From positions 1,674,001 through 1,738,000 of the forward strand of contig NZ_CP030082.1 in NCBI RefSeq assembly GCF_006874645.1: 64,000 nt of DNA. Reading direction: 5' to 3'. This stretch comes from Bdellovibrio sp. ZAP7. Lineage in GTDB: Bacteria > Bdellovibrionota > Bdellovibrionia > Bdellovibrionales > Bdellovibrionaceae. The position numbers and the translations under genes are program-made. The notes below the pieces were generated by a model, which worked only from the letters and a program-made list of their open reading frames with translations, did not search any database and was not told the DNA's origin. Below are positions 50,864 through 58,225 of the stretch, in pieces. Each line of letters opens with the position of its first letter. Position 1 is the stretch's first letter.

Positions 50864-51097
50864 GTGATGGCGTTGTTACTGTTCTCAGGTTGTCGGATGA
50901 CTAGAACAATCGTTGGATCAGATGGGACGCCTCATCAACTTATTAGTTGTTGCACAACCGCATCTTGTTATGAAAAAGCTCGCGACGTATGCGGTAGGAA
51001 TTATAAGATCATCTACACTTCGACAGAAACTTCGGGCGACGCAAACGCAACGTCTAGTTCCATCAACCTCATGGTGAAATGCGAAAACCAAAAGTAG
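50864..51097 (+). CDS. Small cysteine-rich lipoprotein
   Basis: This frame of 77 residues begins with a very short hydrophobic leader ending FSGC, a plausible lipobox, then a compact domain with CCTTASCYEKARDVCG and KCENQ. That pattern (Cys-Tyr-x-Lys-Ala near the middle, a strand, then a Cys before the end) recurs in small proteobacterial lipoproteins of unknown role. The leader lacks the usual basic N-terminus, and neither GTG 50864 nor ATG 50867 has a good ribosome site, so the 5' end may be damaged. Confidence 0.5.
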   Translation: MMALLLFSGCRMTRTIVGSDGTPHQLISCCTTASCYEKARDVCGRNYKIIYTSTETSGDANATSSSINLMVKCENQK

Positions 51098-51457
51098 CTC
51101 CATTTGGAACTATCCTGCGAAGTACGCGAAAGCGTCTTTGCCATTCGTTACTGTTAGGGAAGCTGATTTGCACACAGAAATTTGCTACGAGATTCGCAAT
51201 CCCGATTTCGCCTATCAACCGGCCGATGGATTTCATCTAAAGTGCGGTTACGCAAAGACGGGAGAAAATTTCCATCCCGTGTTGTCGGTGGCCCAATTTT
51301 CAGTCGTTTTTGATAAGAAATATTGATCGTTAACAAACACTTTTCATCAGTCGCTCAAATTTTCTTGAAGCTTGTACCATTACTCTCTTTCTTAAATCTC
51401 GACATGTTATAGTTTGTTTAGTCCGGCCTTATCTGTTTTTTGGGCCAAGGAGTCGTC
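51098..51457. other. Intergenic stretch before the CHASE3-GAF gene
   Basis: This 360-bp stretch has no well-supported gene. A 62-codon frame from a TTG at 51138 has no ribosome site and no recognised domain. An AT-rich segment near 51400-51420 (TTATAGTTT) could be a -10 region for the next gene. Confidence 0.45.
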
Positions 51458-52687
51458 TTGGAGAAGGGCACGAAAGGTACTAAAGCTGAAAAAAGTCTCT
51501 TCTGGGGAGGGGCCCTGGCAGTTCTGTGTTTGGTGGTAATGGGAATTTATTTGCAAAATAATCTAGATAACATCGCAGAGGCTGGTATTCAGCGCGCAAA
51601 ACTCCGAAAAAGTGCTCTCCAGATAAAGATTTTGAAATCGCTGATTGTCGATGCTGAAACAGGACAAAGGGGGTTCTTGTTAACCGGAAATCAGCGGTAT
51701 CTTCGACCTTACAACGCCGTCGCGGAAGATATTGACGATAAATTTGCAGAATTGGAAATCCTGCTAAGCAATAGCCCCGCGCAGCTTGAGCTACTTCGTC
51801 GGGCCCGGGAGTTAACGGGAGAAAAATTGAATGAGCTTAAGCGGACAGTCGACTTAAAACGTCGCGGCTTCACTCCGGAAGCTTTGGAGATTGTGAAGTC
51901 TGACAACGGCCAAGAGGCGATGGAGTCTCTGCGAAATATTTTTGATGAAATGGAGATTTTCCAAGAAGCTCAAATCGTCTCTTTGAGTGGCGCCTTTGTG
52001 CAGACTATCCGTAAAAGTAAAAAAGTGAATTTTTTAGGCACTACATTTTTGACACTGCTCACGCTGGGTCTTATCTTTCTCTTCCAAAAAAATGTTCGCA
52101 TTAGATCTCATCTTCACAAGTCATTGGTCGAATTAGTCGCATCTCTTCGAAAGAAAGAAGAAATTCGCTCGGAAGTTATAGCCATCCAAAATGATATTGC
52201 TGCTTCTTACTTCGATTTGCATTTGATGTTGGATAAAGTCGTCCATCTATCAATGCACCTGACAAAATCGGATGGGGCGCTCATCGAGGAGCTGGATCTT
52301 GAAAGTGGAGACTTGGTTTATCGATATGCCGCAGGTGCAGCGGTTCCTTACTTGGGTATCCGCGTGCAGGCGAGGAATAGTTTTTCCGGATTGTGCGTGC
52401 GGGTGGGACATCCGTTGTTATGCAAAGATTCCGAGGTAGATGATCGGGTCGACAAAGAGGCTTGTCGCCGCGTTCATTTGCGATCAATGATTGTGGTGCC
52501 GCTCTATTATGGTGACCGATTGTTGGGCGTCCTGAAAAACTATTCGGAACATCCAAACTATTACAGTGAGGAAGTATTTGAGGCACTCTCATTGGTGTCT
52601 GGCATGTTGTCGTCCTCCCTTGGTCGGGCAAAGGAGTTTGAAAAGACTCAGGAGGAAATCCAAGCGCTTCGTCGACTTTCATCTTGA
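51458..52687 (+). CDS. Membrane sensor with CHASE3 and GAF domains, no output domain
   Basis: This 409-residue protein has an N-terminal helix (WGGALAVLCLVVMGIYL). A CHASE3 extracytoplasmic domain follows (about residues 40-180; the signature LIVDAETGQRGFLLTGN), then a second helix (TFLTLLTLGLIFLF), a coiled coil, and a GAF domain (about 245-395; VPYLGIRV, SMIVVPLYYGDRLLGVL). There is no kinase, cyclase or methyl-accepting domain. The start is TTG 51458, with AAGGAG 5 bases upstream. It converges on the HD-GYP/kinase operon, so it may feed that pathway. Confidence 0.85.
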   Translation: MEKGTKGTKAEKSLFWGGALAVLCLVVMGIYLQNNLDNIAEAGIQRAKLRKSALQIKILKSLIVDAETGQRGFLLTGNQRYLRPYNAVAEDIDDKFAELEILLSNSPAQLELLRRARELTGEKLNELKRTVDLKRRGFTPEALEIVKSDNGQEAMESLRNIFDEMEIFQEAQIVSLSGAFVQTIRKSKKVNFLGTTFLTLLTLGLIFLFQKNVRIRSHLHKSLVELVASLRKKEEIRSEVIAIQNDIAASYFDLHLMLDKVVHLSMHLTKSDGALIEELDLESGDLVYRYAAGAAVPYLGIRVQARNSFSGLCVRVGHPLLCKDSEVDDRVDKEACRRVHLRSMIVVPLYYGDRLLGVLKNYSEHPNYYSEEVFEALSLVSGMLSSSLGRAKEFEKTQEEIQALRRLSS

Positions 52688-52690
52688 GGT

Positions 52691-54055
52691 TTATGCACTT
52701 TGTTGGTTTTTATTAGCGCCAAACAGTTCATTCAACGCTTTAAGGCAGTTAGCGTCCAAAAGTCCCTGCTTCGTTTCTAGCAGGACCCGATTCGCGCTAT
52801 AGCCATCCATCGGTTCATCTATGTCTGGATTTTTCAAAGTTAAACAACAGAAGTGATCTGCGGTCGAGATAATACGAGTGAGTGGATGGATCTTTTTTTT
52901 ATCTATGCCTCGAGGATATCCTGTTCCCATCATGTCCTCGTGATGTTCATAGGTGATTTGAATAACGTCCGTAGGAATGCCTTTTATGGATTCCAGAATT
53001 TCTTTTCCTCGAATGGGATGAGACTCGATCATAAGGCGTTCTTGCTTGGAGAGTTTAAATCGACTTTTCTTGAGCAAATCTGCAGGCAGTTCTTTGAATC
53101 CAATATTGTGAAAGATGCCAGCCATGGCAATTTTAAATAGATTTTGTGGTGAATTAATTCCCATTTTCTTTGCTATCATAACCGAGTACATGCTAACGCC
53201 CAAACTATGTGCATAGAGTGAATCGCTATTTTCGTTAAGCTGATCCAAAACTGTAAGAGCATCCTCGGATTCAGTTATTACAGAGACACAGGAGCTTAAG
53301 AAATCCTTGGCGTTGTTGAAAACGGATTTATCTGTTCCTTGCACAAACGCTTGTTGAACGATTAATCCCCCCGTGTATTGCATGAAGCGCAATTTTTTTG
53401 GGTCTGTCACCAAAGTGCTATTGTTGACGGCTTTGGAAAGATGTACCGTAAATCCAACGATGCGAGAAAAGTCTACCTGTTTGACATACAGATCGTGGAC
53501 GCCTTTCTGCTTAAAGATTTTTATTTTGTCTTCAGGTATTTTGCCTCCCTTATGTGCGATTTTTATATATTTATCTTTTGCGACTTTCACGAAGATGCCA
53601 AATTCAGTATCTTTTTCTGTTAAAAAGTCTTCGACCGGTAGGGAGCAGAAATCTTCGTCTTTTCCGGCATCGGCAACGAATGCATGGGGCGCAGTTTCTT
53701 GGTGAAGCAGGTGGCTTACTTTTTGTAGCAGATCAGAGGATTTAAAGGGTTTAGGAATAAAATCTTTTGCACCCAATCTGTGGGCACTTGTAGTCTCCAA
53801 GATTTCAGAAAAGCCAGTCATCAGCATTACTGGAACGTTTGAGCGGTATTGAATAACCCATTTAAGGAGCTCGATACCTGTGCATTCGGGCATTTTGATA
53901 TCAGAAATTATCAGATCAGGAGTTTTTTCACTTAAGATTTGTTTCGCCTGATTTCCATGTTCCGCTTCGATTACTTCATAAGATTTCTTTAAAAAGTCTT
54001 TCACCGCGGAACGGAAGAATTCATCGTCCTCAACTAAAAGTATGGTTTTTTTCAT
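52691..54055 (-). CDS. Response regulator with degenerate HD-GYP domain
   Basis: This 454-residue regulator has a REC domain (E9/D10/D11, phospho-acceptor D52 in LIISDIKMPE, T80, K102). A linker domain (about 130-240) follows, then an HD-GYP domain. The domain keeps H283, H346, the H371-H372-E pair and G379-Y380-P381, but the defining HD pair is H316-N317 (GIFHNIGFKELP). Loss of that aspartate should weaken metal binding, so cyclic-di-GMP hydrolysis is doubtful; it may bind the nucleotide or act as a scaffold. It overlaps the kinase gene by 4 bp, so the two are a cognate pair. Confidence 0.88.
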   Translation of the reverse strand: MKKTILLVEDDEFFRSAVKDFLKKSYEVIEAEHGNQAKQILSEKTPDLIISDIKMPECTGIELLKWVIQYRSNVPVMLMTGFSEILETTSAHRLGAKDFIPKPFKSSDLLQKVSHLLHQETAPHAFVADAGKDEDFCSLPVEDFLTEKDTEFGIFVKVAKDKYIKIAHKGGKIPEDKIKIFKQKGVHDLYVKQVDFSRIVGFTVHLSKAVNNSTLVTDPKKLRFMQYTGGLIVQQAFVQGTDKSVFNNAKDFLSSCVSVITESEDALTVLDQLNENSDSLYAHSLGVSMYSVMIAKKMGINSPQNLFKIAMAGIFHNIGFKELPADLLKKSRFKLSKQERLMIESHPIRGKEILESIKGIPTDVIQITYEHHEDMMGTGYPRGIDKKKIHPLTRIISTADHFCCLTLKNPDIDEPMDGYSANRVLLETKQGLLDANCLKALNELFGANKNQQSA

Positions 54056-55104
54056 GTGATGCTGCCTTGTAGTTCTGATAGTTCAATTTCTAAGGTTTGT
54101 TTTTTTGGAATTTCAATCACGAAACTGGTATTCAAATCTCCCGGATCAATGAAGAGTCTGCCATTGTGACTTTTTATAATTCCTACGGAAATACTGAGAC
54201 CTATGCCAGTTCCTTTGCCAATTTCCTTAGTGGTGAAAAACGGATGAAAAATTTTTTCCAGATATTCCGGTGCGATACCGGCCCCGCTGTCGGTCACTCT
54301 GAATTGAACGAAGTCTGGAGTGTCATCGACTTGAACGGTCACCCATTTTTCAGATAGTTTTGAAACGGCGTCGAGGGCATTGTTCATTAGATTTAATAAC
54401 ACCTGAGTAATTTCAGTGGGGCGGCACTCGATCACGATGGTAGAAGCGGGAATTTTCCAGCGAAGATCTACCGACTCACTTTTGAACCGGTCTTCGCAAA
54501 GAATGACGGCGTCTTCTATGCACTCTTGAACAGAGAATTCTGTAAAAGGATCAAGTTCACCGGCTCGAGCGAAAGTTTTTAGTCCTTTGATGATTTTAGC
54601 AATTCGGTCAATAGTTGCATCCGATTTATGAACATAGTCAGCGAGAGCATCCTTGTCTGACTGTTCGCCTTTTTCGAGCTCCGAAATGGCTTCATTCAGG
54701 AACATCTTGATTGCAGCTAGGGGGGTGTTGATTTCATGAGCGATGCCTCCGACCATTTCACCTAAGGCCGACATTTTCGCTGCTTGTAATGCGATATTTT
54801 TTTGTTCATTGAGTTCGAGGTTAGCCGCTTCGGACATTTTGTGAATGGAGGCCTGAATGCTTTTCTGTATTTTTAGGATAACTATCGAACAGAGCAGGGT
54901 CATGGCGGAAAATAGAATGGTTAGCAAAACAACTACATCGAACACCGCATCTACCGGAAGCTGTTGTTTTTTTATGGAGATATTTGCAAATGTAACAATA
55001 ATGCCAGCGATACCAATGGCAGATATTACCAACTCGGCATACGGAATGATATCTCCCGTATATGTATCCTTGATTTGGTCCGCAATCGGTAGGTTGTTTT
55101 TCAT
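54052..55104 (-). CDS. Membrane sensor histidine kinase
   Basis: This is a kinase of about 350 residues with two N-terminal helices (AELVISAIGIAGIIVTF and VVVLLTILFSAMTLLCSIVIL), almost no periplasmic loop, a coiled coil, the HisKA box EMVGGIAHEINTPL, and HATPase motifs (LLNLMNNALDAV, DSGAGIAP, GTGIGLSIS). The layout suits sensing within the membrane or from the cytoplasm. ATG 55104 is used; a TTG at 55134 is possible but lacks a ribosome site. It is transcribed first in a two-gene unit with the REC/HD-GYP regulator and divergently from the FIST-like pair. Confidence 0.86.
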   Translation of the reverse strand: MKNNLPIADQIKDTYTGDIIPYAELVISAIGIAGIIVTFANISIKKQQLPVDAVFDVVVLLTILFSAMTLLCSIVILKIQKSIQASIHKMSEAANLELNEQKNIALQAAKMSALGEMVGGIAHEINTPLAAIKMFLNEAISELEKGEQSDKDALADYVHKSDATIDRIAKIIKGLKTFARAGELDPFTEFSVQECIEDAVILCEDRFKSESVDLRWKIPASTIVIECRPTEITQVLLNLMNNALDAVSKLSEKWVTVQVDDTPDFVQFRVTDSGAGIAPEYLEKIFHPFFTTKEIGKGTGIGLSISVGIIKSHNGRLFIDPGDLNTSFVIEIPKKQTLEIELSELQGSIT

Positions 55105-55146
55105 CCCCGTTAATTCGGAACTGAAAAGTGTCAACTAAACAGATCT

Positions 55147-55158
55147 CAAGAAATCTTG
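55147..55158. promoter_or_regulatory. Candidate operator dyad in divergent promoter region
   Basis: CAAGA-AA-TCTTG is a perfect short palindrome in the 156-bp region between the divergently transcribed kinase and small-protein genes. Its position suits joint control of both units, but 10 paired bases can occur by chance. Confidence 0.25.
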
Positions 55159-55260
55159 GCCCGAAAATTCAGATGTTTGCGAGTTTGTTCTATATAACTT
55201 CAAAACAGGACGCCGATAAGAAGAATGTCCTTTTTAACCCATACAATACATGGGAGACGT

Positions 55261-55500
55261 ATGATTCCGCCGAAGGAGCATCCGCGCTGGAGAGAAATTG
55301 TTGCCCACGATGGCAATCTTTCTTTGCACGCTTTATCAACCAAGATGGTTATGACGCGAGTTAGAACCGTTTTAGGTACGAGCCCCACTGAAGAAAAGGT
55401 TCAGGAAGCCATTACTATCGCTTTTGACTTTTTTAAGAAGAATGAATTCGCAGTGGCAGATGATATTAAAACTTTATTTGGTGAGGATTCCGGAAGATGA
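55261..55500 (+). CDS. Small soluble protein of unknown function
   Basis: This 79-residue protein starts MIPPKEHPRWREIVAHDG after a GGGAGA ribosome site; the region between 55225 and 55261 is not needed. It seems to be largely helical and ends FGEDSGR. No family is recognised. It overlaps the FIST-like gene by 4 bp (ATGA), so the two are translated together and may act as partners. Both are divergent from the kinase-regulator pair. Confidence 0.65.
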   Translation: MIPPKEHPRWREIVAHDGNLSLHALSTKMVMTRVRTVLGTSPTEEKVQEAITIAFDFFKKNEFAVADDIKTLFGEDSGR

Positions 55501-56492
55501 AAAGTCTTTTAAAAGTAAATGAAGTGGTGGAGTTAATTAAGTCCGGAAAAAAACTAGTTTTAGCAGCTGATGAAAAGTTGCTGATGGCCCTGCCAAAGGG
55601 GCAGTGGATCGGCGGGACTATTCCGTATTTCATGTCAGAGAATGGCGGAATAGAAACCACGGAGCTCATTCAGGTCGGTGTACTGCCGGATTTTGTTGAG
55701 CACTGTACTGTCATTCACTACAGAGCCGATAAATTGCATAAGATACCTTCTGATTATGAACAAAATGGCGTGTCCTTTATCATGATACCTGCTTTTTCAA
55801 ATGCACATTTTGAGTTTGCGAAAAATTGTTCAAGTTACCAAGGAATCTTTGATCATCCTCTTTTGGGTTGGATCACGGGCTATCAATTGGGACAGACTGT
55901 TCTGACTAAGCCAAAAACCTTTAATGGACTCACAGGTGAATTTTCGGAAGATGGCGCGCTGGTTATGCATTTAAATCTTCGCGAGGATAAATTCGGCAAA
56001 GTTAATATTATTAACATTTTTAACCAGGGATCTGGAGACGCGATTTCATTCAAGGAAACGGGGTTTGAGGTATCGTCCTGTTTGGTGAATGGTGTGGAAA
56101 CGAGCTTTTTCGACTATATCAAATCCAATAATATCAACACGCAATTGCCACTGGTCGCAAATTATTCAGGCGCAGCCGTTAATGTGAGTATTATGACTCT
56201 TAACGAAGACAAAAGGACAGTCAGTTTATATGCGCCCGTATTTCCGGGGGTGGATTACAAAATCGCAGCTGCAGTGGAAAGTTACGAAGGCGAATTTGAA
56301 AAACATGTTTCCCGAATGAATCTAACCAAGCCAACGTTGTCCTGCAATTGTGTTCTGAATTACCTTTATGCAAATCTTGAGGGTAAAAAAACCGCGAATA
56401 TCCTGGGGCCGATGACGTTCGGAGAAATCGCGTACATGCTCTTGAATCAGACGATGGTATATGTAACTTTTGAAGACAAGGTAGCGCCTTAA
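55497..56492 (+). CDS. FIST-like sensory domain protein
   Basis: This is a 331-residue soluble protein. The N-terminal part has a GQWIGGTIPYFMSENGG turn like the conserved GG site of FIST N-terminal domains. The C-terminus has LSCNCVLNYLY followed by GPMTFGEIAYMLLNQTMVYVTF, which resembles the cysteine and GEI/N-Q-T motifs of FIST C-terminal domains (small-ligand sensors found beside signal-transduction genes). It has no attached output domain. It is co-translated with the small protein upstream and sits opposite a histidine kinase operon. The resemblance is moderate and needs a profile search. Confidence 0.5.
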   Translation: MKSLLKVNEVVELIKSGKKLVLAADEKLLMALPKGQWIGGTIPYFMSENGGIETTELIQVGVLPDFVEHCTVIHYRADKLHKIPSDYEQNGVSFIMIPAFSNAHFEFAKNCSSYQGIFDHPLLGWITGYQLGQTVLTKPKTFNGLTGEFSEDGALVMHLNLREDKFGKVNIINIFNQGSGDAISFKETGFEVSSCLVNGVETSFFDYIKSNNINTQLPLVANYSGAAVNVSIMTLNEDKRTVSLYAPVFPGVDYKIAAAVESYEGEFEKHVSRMNLTKPTLSCNCVLNYLYANLEGKKTANILGPMTFGEIAYMLLNQTMVYVTFEDKVAP

Positions 56493-56522: not shown

Positions 56523-57650
56523 CTAGAAAGTAAAAAACGGCTCCATCTCAATCGGACGTTCATTGGACGGATGCATGAACTCCGGTGGTTCCGTATCCGG
56601 CGGCATCATCAAATAAACTCCAAATGGAATTTTCGCCGACACCCAATTCATCGGGCGACGGTAAACGTATTCAGAACGCATCTGATTATAAACCAGGAAC
56701 TCATTTTCTTGAGCATCGTCAAAGGCTTTCCAAAGCAAAGCTTCAAAAATATCGCCATTATCCGCATGCAGGAAATTCAAATATTTAAAATTTAAACTTG
56801 CTTCGATTTTCAGACGAGAAAACGGCTTCGTCATCGTGCGAGTCCAGCCCAGCATTTTTCCGAATTTCAAAAACTGACGGAAGTTGTGGGCTTTCAAGTT
56901 GTAAGTCATCGGGATGAAGTCTTGCTTGCCCTCGGCGGACCAAGGAGCACAACAACCGACGATGTTGTCGTTCTTATCAATCGCGATAATGAAATCTTCA
57001 AGCTTCAAACCTTCCCAACGATCCAATTTATCGTGGAAGCTTTGTGCATCCCAAACCGTCGCCAAATCCTTAGAGCGGGATTTTTGCGAGATATAATAAA
57101 TCAAAGCATCCACATTCGCGGGACTTCCATGGCGCATACGCAAGTGTGGCAGTGGATTTTTCGCCCAAGGAAAGCGTCCATGGACAGAAACCATGTTTAA
57201 ACGACGGAACAAGTAATAACGAGGCAAAGGACGTTTCAAAGTTCTTTGGCGAACGAAGGCATTCATGGATTTTGCTTCGTTTAAGCTCATCACCGTAAAG
57301 AAATACTTCGCATCCAAGACGGAGGAGACTTCATTCATCACTGGCAAAAAGTGCTGACCCCATTCCAAGATCGCTTTACGATTCGAAGAAATACGTAAGT
57401 CCCGGCCAAAGGCCACGGTGCGAACTTTATTATCCAGCAAAACATCGCGAACCACAAAGCTCGCCATGCCTTCCAGTTTTCCTTCGTCCTTCAACATATA
57501 AGTTAAAGACTTTTCCCCATGAACTTCATAAGGATGAAAAAAATTTCCGTCACGATCAATTTTGATCTGCAAGGGACCATCTAACGGGAAACTTTTGTAA
57601 AATTCAACTAACGCGGCCGAATCATCCGGCGAGGCAATCTCAAGTTTCAT
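56523..57650 (-). CDS. Putative GNAT-fold protein of unknown substrate
   Basis: This is a 375-residue soluble protein. Residues about 60-150 look like a GNAT N-terminal half (GKLEGMASFVVRDVLLDNK, FGRDLRIS), and a second similar strand pair occurs around 220-250 (DFIIAIDKNDNIVGCCAPWS), so it may be a tandem GNAT. The acetyl-CoA loop (R-x-x-G-x-G) is not clear, hence the caution. ATG 57650 shares its A with the stop of the cobalamin adenosyltransferase gene (TAATG), a coupled arrangement. A TTG 15 bases upstream is an alternative start. Confidence 0.5.
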   Translation of the reverse strand: MKLEIASPDDSAALVEFYKSFPLDGPLQIKIDRDGNFFHPYEVHGEKSLTYMLKDEGKLEGMASFVVRDVLLDNKVRTVAFGRDLRISSNRKAILEWGQHFLPVMNEVSSVLDAKYFFTVMSLNEAKSMNAFVRQRTLKRPLPRYYLFRRLNMVSVHGRFPWAKNPLPHLRMRHGSPANVDALIYYISQKSRSKDLATVWDAQSFHDKLDRWEGLKLEDFIIAIDKNDNIVGCCAPWSAEGKQDFIPMTYNLKAHNFRQFLKFGKMLGWTRTMTKPFSRLKIEASLNFKYLNFLHADNGDIFEALLWKAFDDAQENEFLVYNQMRSEYVYRRPMNWVSAKIPFGVYLMMPPDTEPPEFMHPSNERPIEMEPFFTF

Positions 57651-58225
57651 TAAGTCTTTTTCCAAAGGACTTCAGATTGTCCCATTTTAAGGTTGGCCCA
57701 ACGAGCAGCAACGAATAAGAAATCGCTTAAGCGATTCAAATACTGCAAACACATGGCATAGCGCTCATCTTTCACCGCGATTTCAGCAGATCTGCGTTCG
57801 CTGCGACGGCAGCAGGTACGTGCTACGTGCAAATGCGAAGCGACAATGTGGCCTGCTGGTAAAATGAAATTGCGCAGTTCCGGCAACTCCGCCGTTAATT
57901 CATCAATTTTAACTTCCAGCACGCGAATTTGTTCGCCAGTGATCGGTGGCAACATTTGAAAGACTTCGTCTTTCTCCGTTGCCAGCAGGCTTCCGATGTT
58001 GAAAAGCTCGTTTTGTATTTTCTCAAGGATCTCATCCAAAGCAAGCAGGGTCGGATAGGCATACAAAGTGGAACGACAGACTCCGATATAGCTATTCAAC
58101 TCATCCACGGTGCCATAGGCCTCCACGCGTGGATTGAATTTTTCAACGCATGAACCATCCACCAATCGTGTGGTCCCTTTGTCGCCAGTGCGAGTGTAGA
58201 TCTTTGCTTTGGGAGGTGTCGTCAT
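57650..58225 (-). CDS. Cob(I)alamin adenosyltransferase, PduO type
   Basis: This 191-residue enzyme transfers the adenosyl group of ATP to cob(I)alamin, making coenzyme B12. The signature TRTGDKGTTRLVDGSCVEK near the N-terminus binds ATP. The helical bundle shows VDELNSYIGVCR, LPAGHIVASHLHVARTCCRRSER, and LNRLSDFLFVAARW, as in PduO/MMAB proteins. ATG 58225 is chosen because AAAGGG lies just upstream; a TTG at 58243 would contain that ribosome site. It shares a base with the next gene downstream and is divergent from the amidohydrolase gene. Confidence 0.93.
   Translation of the reverse strand: MTTPPKAKIYTRTGDKGTTRLVDGSCVEKFNPRVEAYGTVDELNSYIGVCRSTLYAYPTLLALDEILEKIQNELFNIGSLLATEKDEVFQMLPPITGEQIRVLEVKIDELTAELPELRNFILPAGHIVASHLHVARTCCRRSERRSAEIAVKDERYAMCLQYLNRLSDFLFVAARWANLKMGQSEVLWKKT

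Follow-up and report, generated by a model that had tools for sequence, protein, structure and literature searches.

How might a histidine kinase without a recognised sensor domain be supplied with a signal? The question is raised by a locus of Bdellovibrio sp. ZAP7, within a 64,000-nucleotide stretch of contig NZ_CP030082.1 (positions 1,674,001 to 1,738,000; hereafter the window), where genes for such a kinase and for a response regulator face, divergently, the genes of a 79-residue protein and a 331-residue protein of the family DUF6976. A preliminary description of this DNA had proposed an undescribed signalling module with a FIST-like protein. Our analysis upholds the core of this proposal: the two points on which it could have failed, a FIST match by profile and a conserved gene neighbourhood, were both checked and both seen, the former as a remote, profile-profile match. 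We put the probability at roughly 0.55 that the two co-translated proteins act as a previously undescribed auxiliary sensor, FIST-like and equipped with its own adaptor, and control the sensor-less kinase; complex formation, kinase control and the adaptor role are what we infer. This reading is the best supported one because the logic of the NosP-NosK-NosR system is repeated here with different parts.

The DUF6976 protein as a likely remote FIST homologue

The 331-residue protein is a full-length DUF6976 protein (PF22396; Pfam E 2.9e-129, 431 bits against a cut-off of 27, 320 positions). This is a family of unknown function, which no paper in our literature search mentioned; its FIST link, small partner and signalling context are newly described here. 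The label FIST-like, as first given, holds at the level of remote homology but not of a plain match, since the protein matched neither FIST nor FIST_C of Pfam at E 10 and stayed below the curated cut-off. Among 22 DUF6976 proteins, two gave weak FIST_C matches (best E 0.0054, Pfam), and FIST_C is the sole family besides DUF6976 to match more than one of them. Comparison of these 22 with 16 FIST proteins by hhalign yielded a probability of 71.5 and a score of 44.6 over residues 121-330, whereas the best of 60 column-shuffled FIST profiles scored 24.7 and a reversed profile 14.7. The signal varies with alignment depth: a shallower DUF6976 alignment gave a probability of 18 and a comparison against four FIST sequences a low 1.4, each in the register of the deep alignment. 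The N-terminal half of DUF6976 could not be aligned to FIST by profile.

In the C-terminal half, DUF6976 carries the motif order Cys...G-x-x-T/S-[FY]-G-E...N-Q-T in alignment with FIST. The same order (NG/DG, the Cys of an 'SC' strand, GxxTFGE, NQT) characterises FIST and FIST_C (PF08495, PF10442), which include CdpA and human FBXO22; in the window protein the motifs are the NG/DG near residue 198, the Cys of 'SCNC', TFGE at 307-310 and NQT at 317-319. DUF6976 differs in being a separate Pfam family and in its shorter Cys-Glu hairpin. Within the alignment of 22, C285, E310 and H104 are invariant and C283 nearly so. The FIST domain of FBXO22 has a reactive cysteine, C326, with a neighbouring glutamate, E362 (PMC13316043), and, judged by motif order and spacing, C285 and E310 would be their counterparts. 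An AlphaFold2 model of the DUF6976 protein, computed from three sequences, reached a predicted local distance difference test (pLDDT) value of 65, falling below 50 in the C-terminal motif region. With this model, VIA-align placed four FBXO22 chains on top (Z 6.8-7.8, under 8; 146-186 residues), making FBXO22 the best structural match, followed by chorismatase and cyanuric acid hydrolase at Z about 5 (5.1). Plain Foldseek of the model against the PDB found nothing at E 0.001, its top rows being PurM-like with a template modelling score of about 0.13, and neither the DUF6976 profile nor a four-sequence FIST profile brought up anything relevant in PDB sequence searches. Taking the weak FIST_C matches, the profile-profile comparison, the shared motifs and the fold comparison together, we consider it likely that DUF6976 is a remote FIST homologue, short of formal family membership.

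A four-helix domain as constant partner

The stop codon of the 79-residue protein's gene overlaps the ATG of the DUF6976 gene (ATGA). Its AlphaFold2 model, a confident one (pLDDT 86), has four helices, at residues 8-15, 25-38, 44-60 and 66-73. The protein belongs to no Pfam, NCBIfam or PHROGs family; a single NCBIfam match, to the BrxL-like TIGR02653 (E 0.009, 14 bits against a cut-off of 628), was rejected as chance. Comparison of the fold with the PDB returned no convincing match (best Z 3.9; best Foldseek E 4.8), a result that does not prove a new fold.

The expectation that the small protein accompanies the FIST-like one was borne out in 26 of 26 loci examined, in which the four-helix domain is encoded directly upstream of DUF6976, fused to it or present as tandem repeats. 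These loci span Bdellovibrionota, Gamma-, Beta- and Alphaproteobacteria and a Bacillota-labelled class. In the genome designated G026 the domain forms the N-terminal part of a fusion with DUF6976; tandem copies, which come after an N-terminal extension, number five in G295, four in G497, three in Bermanella and two in Ideonella. In G295 this extension weakly resembles the ISL3 transposase zinc ribbon, at a level below cut-off (E 3e-4). An adaptor role, as initially suggested, is plausible. Locus L088 (9647-11545) encodes a 632-residue protein with five four-helix copies behind a weak Zn_ribbon_ISL3 match; it lies upstream of DUF6976 and of an operon for REC, CheY, CheW, methyl-accepting chemotaxis protein (MCP) and CheA, in a gene order that recalls Pil-Chp.

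The pair of small protein and DUF6976 also occurs in Proteobacteria and in the Bacillota-labelled group and is thus not specific to predators. The contig scan, queried with one protein and not with an alignment, found two loci, so that the distribution is under-sampled. A viral origin was considered and rejected, as there were no relatives in viral contigs and no PHROG match.

A four-gene unit within the genus

Across 24 genomes of the genus, DUF6976 was present in six, and the divergent block of kinase, response regulator and pair in four, the relatives of the window genome being G061, G086 and G146. Of the genes that flank the block in the window, those tested are all absent from its surroundings in G061 and G086. 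Given its presence in all three relatives and this change of flanks in two of them, the four genes have been kept together as a unit. An ortholog of the response regulator (at least 45% identity) was found in five of the six genomes with DUF6976, as against one of the 18 without.

All five gene products originally predicted were confirmed in the window, and a five-member module had been proposed from them. Four of these members stand. The fifth, a CHASE3-GAF protein whose gene ends 3 bases from the convergent response regulator gene, is ruled out by its phyletic pattern, as it has no counterpart above threshold in the five other genus genomes with DUF6976. Its best counterpart in the genus is a stand-alone protein of 52% identity in G142, a genome without DUF6976 and without a full-length ortholog of the response regulator, and most of the remaining genus matches are segments of proteins about 800 residues long. 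A five-part complex in which CHASE3-GAF serves as a further input and reports prey metabolites is therefore very improbable, even if the protein is physically close and lacks an output domain of its own. The surmise that prey-derived metabolites or amino acids are sensed is likewise unsupported; the characterised parallels, NosP and CdpA, tie FIST to heme and nitric oxide (PMC8846402).

The kinase, the response regulator and the NosP parallel

By hydropathy and ortholog alignment, the kinase consists of two hydrophobic predicted membrane helices with a short loop between them, followed by intact HisKA and HATPase domains; no sensor domain was recognised in it by Pfam. Of the kinase-REC/degenerate HD-GYP pair first described, the degenerate HD-GYP is confirmed, whereas the REC domain sits with the HD-GYP and the kinase is a separate gene. 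The HD-GYP domain reads 'FHNIGF ... GTGYP', where the active form has 'HDIG': the metal-binding Asp is replaced by Asn and GYP is retained, and the metal-binding HD pair of active HD-GYP phosphodiesterases is thus absent. This HN is also found in the orthologs of G061, G086 and G146. The HD-GYP part aligns over 270 residues, in keeping with a Bdellovibrio-type genome, with Bd1817 (PDB 3TM8), which has kept the HD aspartate, in contrast to the Asn and the additional REC domain of the window protein. In G148, a REC-HD-GYP and kinase pair away from DUF6976 (L069:4902-8315) includes a paralog that keeps the catalytic HD.

In B. pseudomallei, the FIST protein NosP inhibits NosK by binding to it; NosK is a kinase in which no sensor domain is recognised, and it phosphorylates NosR, a REC-degenerate HD-GYP protein (PMC12570481). 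The window repeats this layout, also known as NosP-NahK-NarR, in that a gene for a FIST-type soluble protein lies beside genes for a sensor-less histidine kinase and a cyclic-di-GMP-type REC protein, and the degenerate HD-GYP is shared with NosR (PMC12570481). The differences are that the FIST-like protein of the window is DUF6976, below any FIST cut-off, that it has a co-translated four-helix partner, and that the kinase is membrane-anchored, whereas B. pseudomallei NosK has no predicted membrane segment. To our knowledge, NosP systems have no 79-residue partner. With this layout and the FIST homology of DUF6976 in mind, the protein might be seen as a divergent, heme-binding NosP that signals nitric oxide to the kinase, by analogy with Burkholderia. 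We regard this as unlikely: beside the additional partner, the FIST_C Cys and Glu of DUF6976 in the window are 25 to 27 residues apart, against about 35 in FIST, and the response regulator, for which the NosR model (NF053512) was the best of 103 NCBIfam families, misses its cut-off (132 bits against 400). Heme or nitric oxide binding is not readable from sequence.

The kinase and the response regulator might also control the expression or activity of the pair, which would then be an output. The divergent genes are about 130 bases apart, an arrangement typical of shared regulation. Yet the response regulator has no DNA-binding domain, the kinases beside the pair in other genomes differ widely in output type, and no sigma-70-like promoter was found in the intergenic region, and we hold this direction of control to be quite improbable.

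Signalling neighbours in other bacteria

Elsewhere, the pair keeps varied company. It lies 19 bases after a Cache-HAMP kinase in G148, is flanked by a histidine kinase-REC gene and by Hpt and REC genes in G152, and is preceded by REC-histidine kinase and Cache-histidine kinase-REC genes in G439; in G026 a PAS-histidine kinase-REC-Hpt gene directly follows the fused pair. Chemotaxis genes adjoin it in G295 (REC, CheY-like, CheW, MCP and CheA-REC genes after the pair), in G497 (a similar set with CheW and CheA) and in G168 (CheR and CheB after the pair), and in Ideonella it stands between a Cache-GAF hybrid kinase and an EAL protein. An immediate two-component or chemotaxis neighbour was present in nine of 22 distinct contexts, six of them in apparent operons. 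In the window genome, 61 matches to HATPase and 72 to REC were counted, many in shared genes, from which we estimated roughly 100 signalling genes among about 3,900 and a chance near 5% for two flanks. The excess, counted by hand with a background from one genome and relatedness uncorrected, corresponds to a binomial tail near 1e-6, rising to 1e-4 with the chance doubled.

These counts bear on a further possibility, namely that the small protein and DUF6976 constitute a free-standing enzyme or ligand carrier whose signalling neighbours are incidental or co-regulated. Two-component neighbours are missing in 13 of the 22 contexts, including all five in the Bacillota-labelled class; the folds ranked after FBXO22 are enzymes, and a catalytic role is conceivable for the invariant His, Cys and Glu. 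Against this stand the excess of signalling neighbours, the apparent operons and the divergent block that is kept while its flanks change, and overall we find a free-standing function rather unlikely.

A broader and more tentative proposal, which we find less probable than the auxiliary sensor itself, is that the four-helix domain and DUF6976 form a FIST-superfamily sensory cassette that is both general and transferable. In Bdellovibrionota, Pseudomonadota and the Bacillota-labelled group, such a cassette would plug into two-component kinases, into phosphorelays and into chemosensory arrays. It would sense through a reactive Cys-x-Cys/Glu site, and its docking valency would be set by how many adaptor repeats it has (one to five, some with a zinc-ribbon-like N-terminal extension). 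We also noted a tyrosine recombinase gene beside the pair in three loci (L011:7268-8479, L012:4404-5630 and L085:6659-8635), and three pairs on plasmids; these neighbours and locations hint at horizontal movement of the pair.

Proposed mechanism

As an auxiliary sensor, the pair would act within a unit of four genes in two divergent pairs. The DUF6976 protein, whose FIST_C site retains Cys and Glu, would bind a small ligand or react chemically in the cytoplasm, and together with its co-translated four-helix partner would dock on the membrane-anchored, sensor-less histidine kinase, raising or lowering its kinase/phosphatase activity. The kinase would phosphorylate the degenerate HD-GYP protein on its REC domain, and this protein would in turn exert its effect through binding, with no hydrolysis of cyclic-di-GMP. 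In other bacteria, the pair may be plugged into other kinases and a chemosensory array.

Several points weigh against the auxiliary sensor. Besides the 13 contexts named above, those genomes of the genus that carry the complete block may belong to a single clade; no ortholog of the response regulator was found in G152, G065 has the response regulator but no DUF6976, and the closest response regulator of G148 is on another contig and keeps the HD. FIST membership leans on remote methods, no FIST match having passed a curated cut-off, and the model of the 331-residue protein is weak, above all in its C-terminal motif region.

Locus anatomy

Table 1. Genes at the locus, with positions in the window
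Feature	Position	Strand	Basis
77-aa protein, lipoprotein-like start (LLLFSGC)	50864-51097	+	no family
CHASE3-GAF protein, no output domain	51440-52687	+	Pfam: CHASE3 E 3e-30, GAF_2 1.4e-10
Response regulator, REC and degenerate HD-GYP	52691-54055	-	Pfam: REC 8.8e-27, HD_5 9.2e-26
Histidine kinase	54052-55134	-	Pfam: HisKA 8.1e-11, HATPase 4.4e-21
79-aa four-helix protein, presumed adaptor	55261-55500	+	sequence, AlphaFold2 model, homologues paired with DUF6976
331-aa DUF6976 (PF22396) protein, presumed auxiliary sensor	55497-56492	+	Pfam, hhalign to FIST, fold comparison
380-aa protein	56523-57665	-	no Pfam or NCBIfam family

An ATG near 55104 is a possible alternative start of the kinase. Downstream of the pair, the gene of the 380-residue protein adjoins cobalamin adenosyltransferase and N-formylglutamate amidohydrolase genes. 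An Rfam search of the window gave no match.

Significance

The analysis offers a testable role for a family of unknown function and for an unnamed small protein domain. FIST-type auxiliary sensing for kinases has so far mainly been known through NosP, and our findings suggest a second branch that has an adaptor of its own and extends into chemosensory operons. Such a branch could explain the input route of sensor-less kinases.

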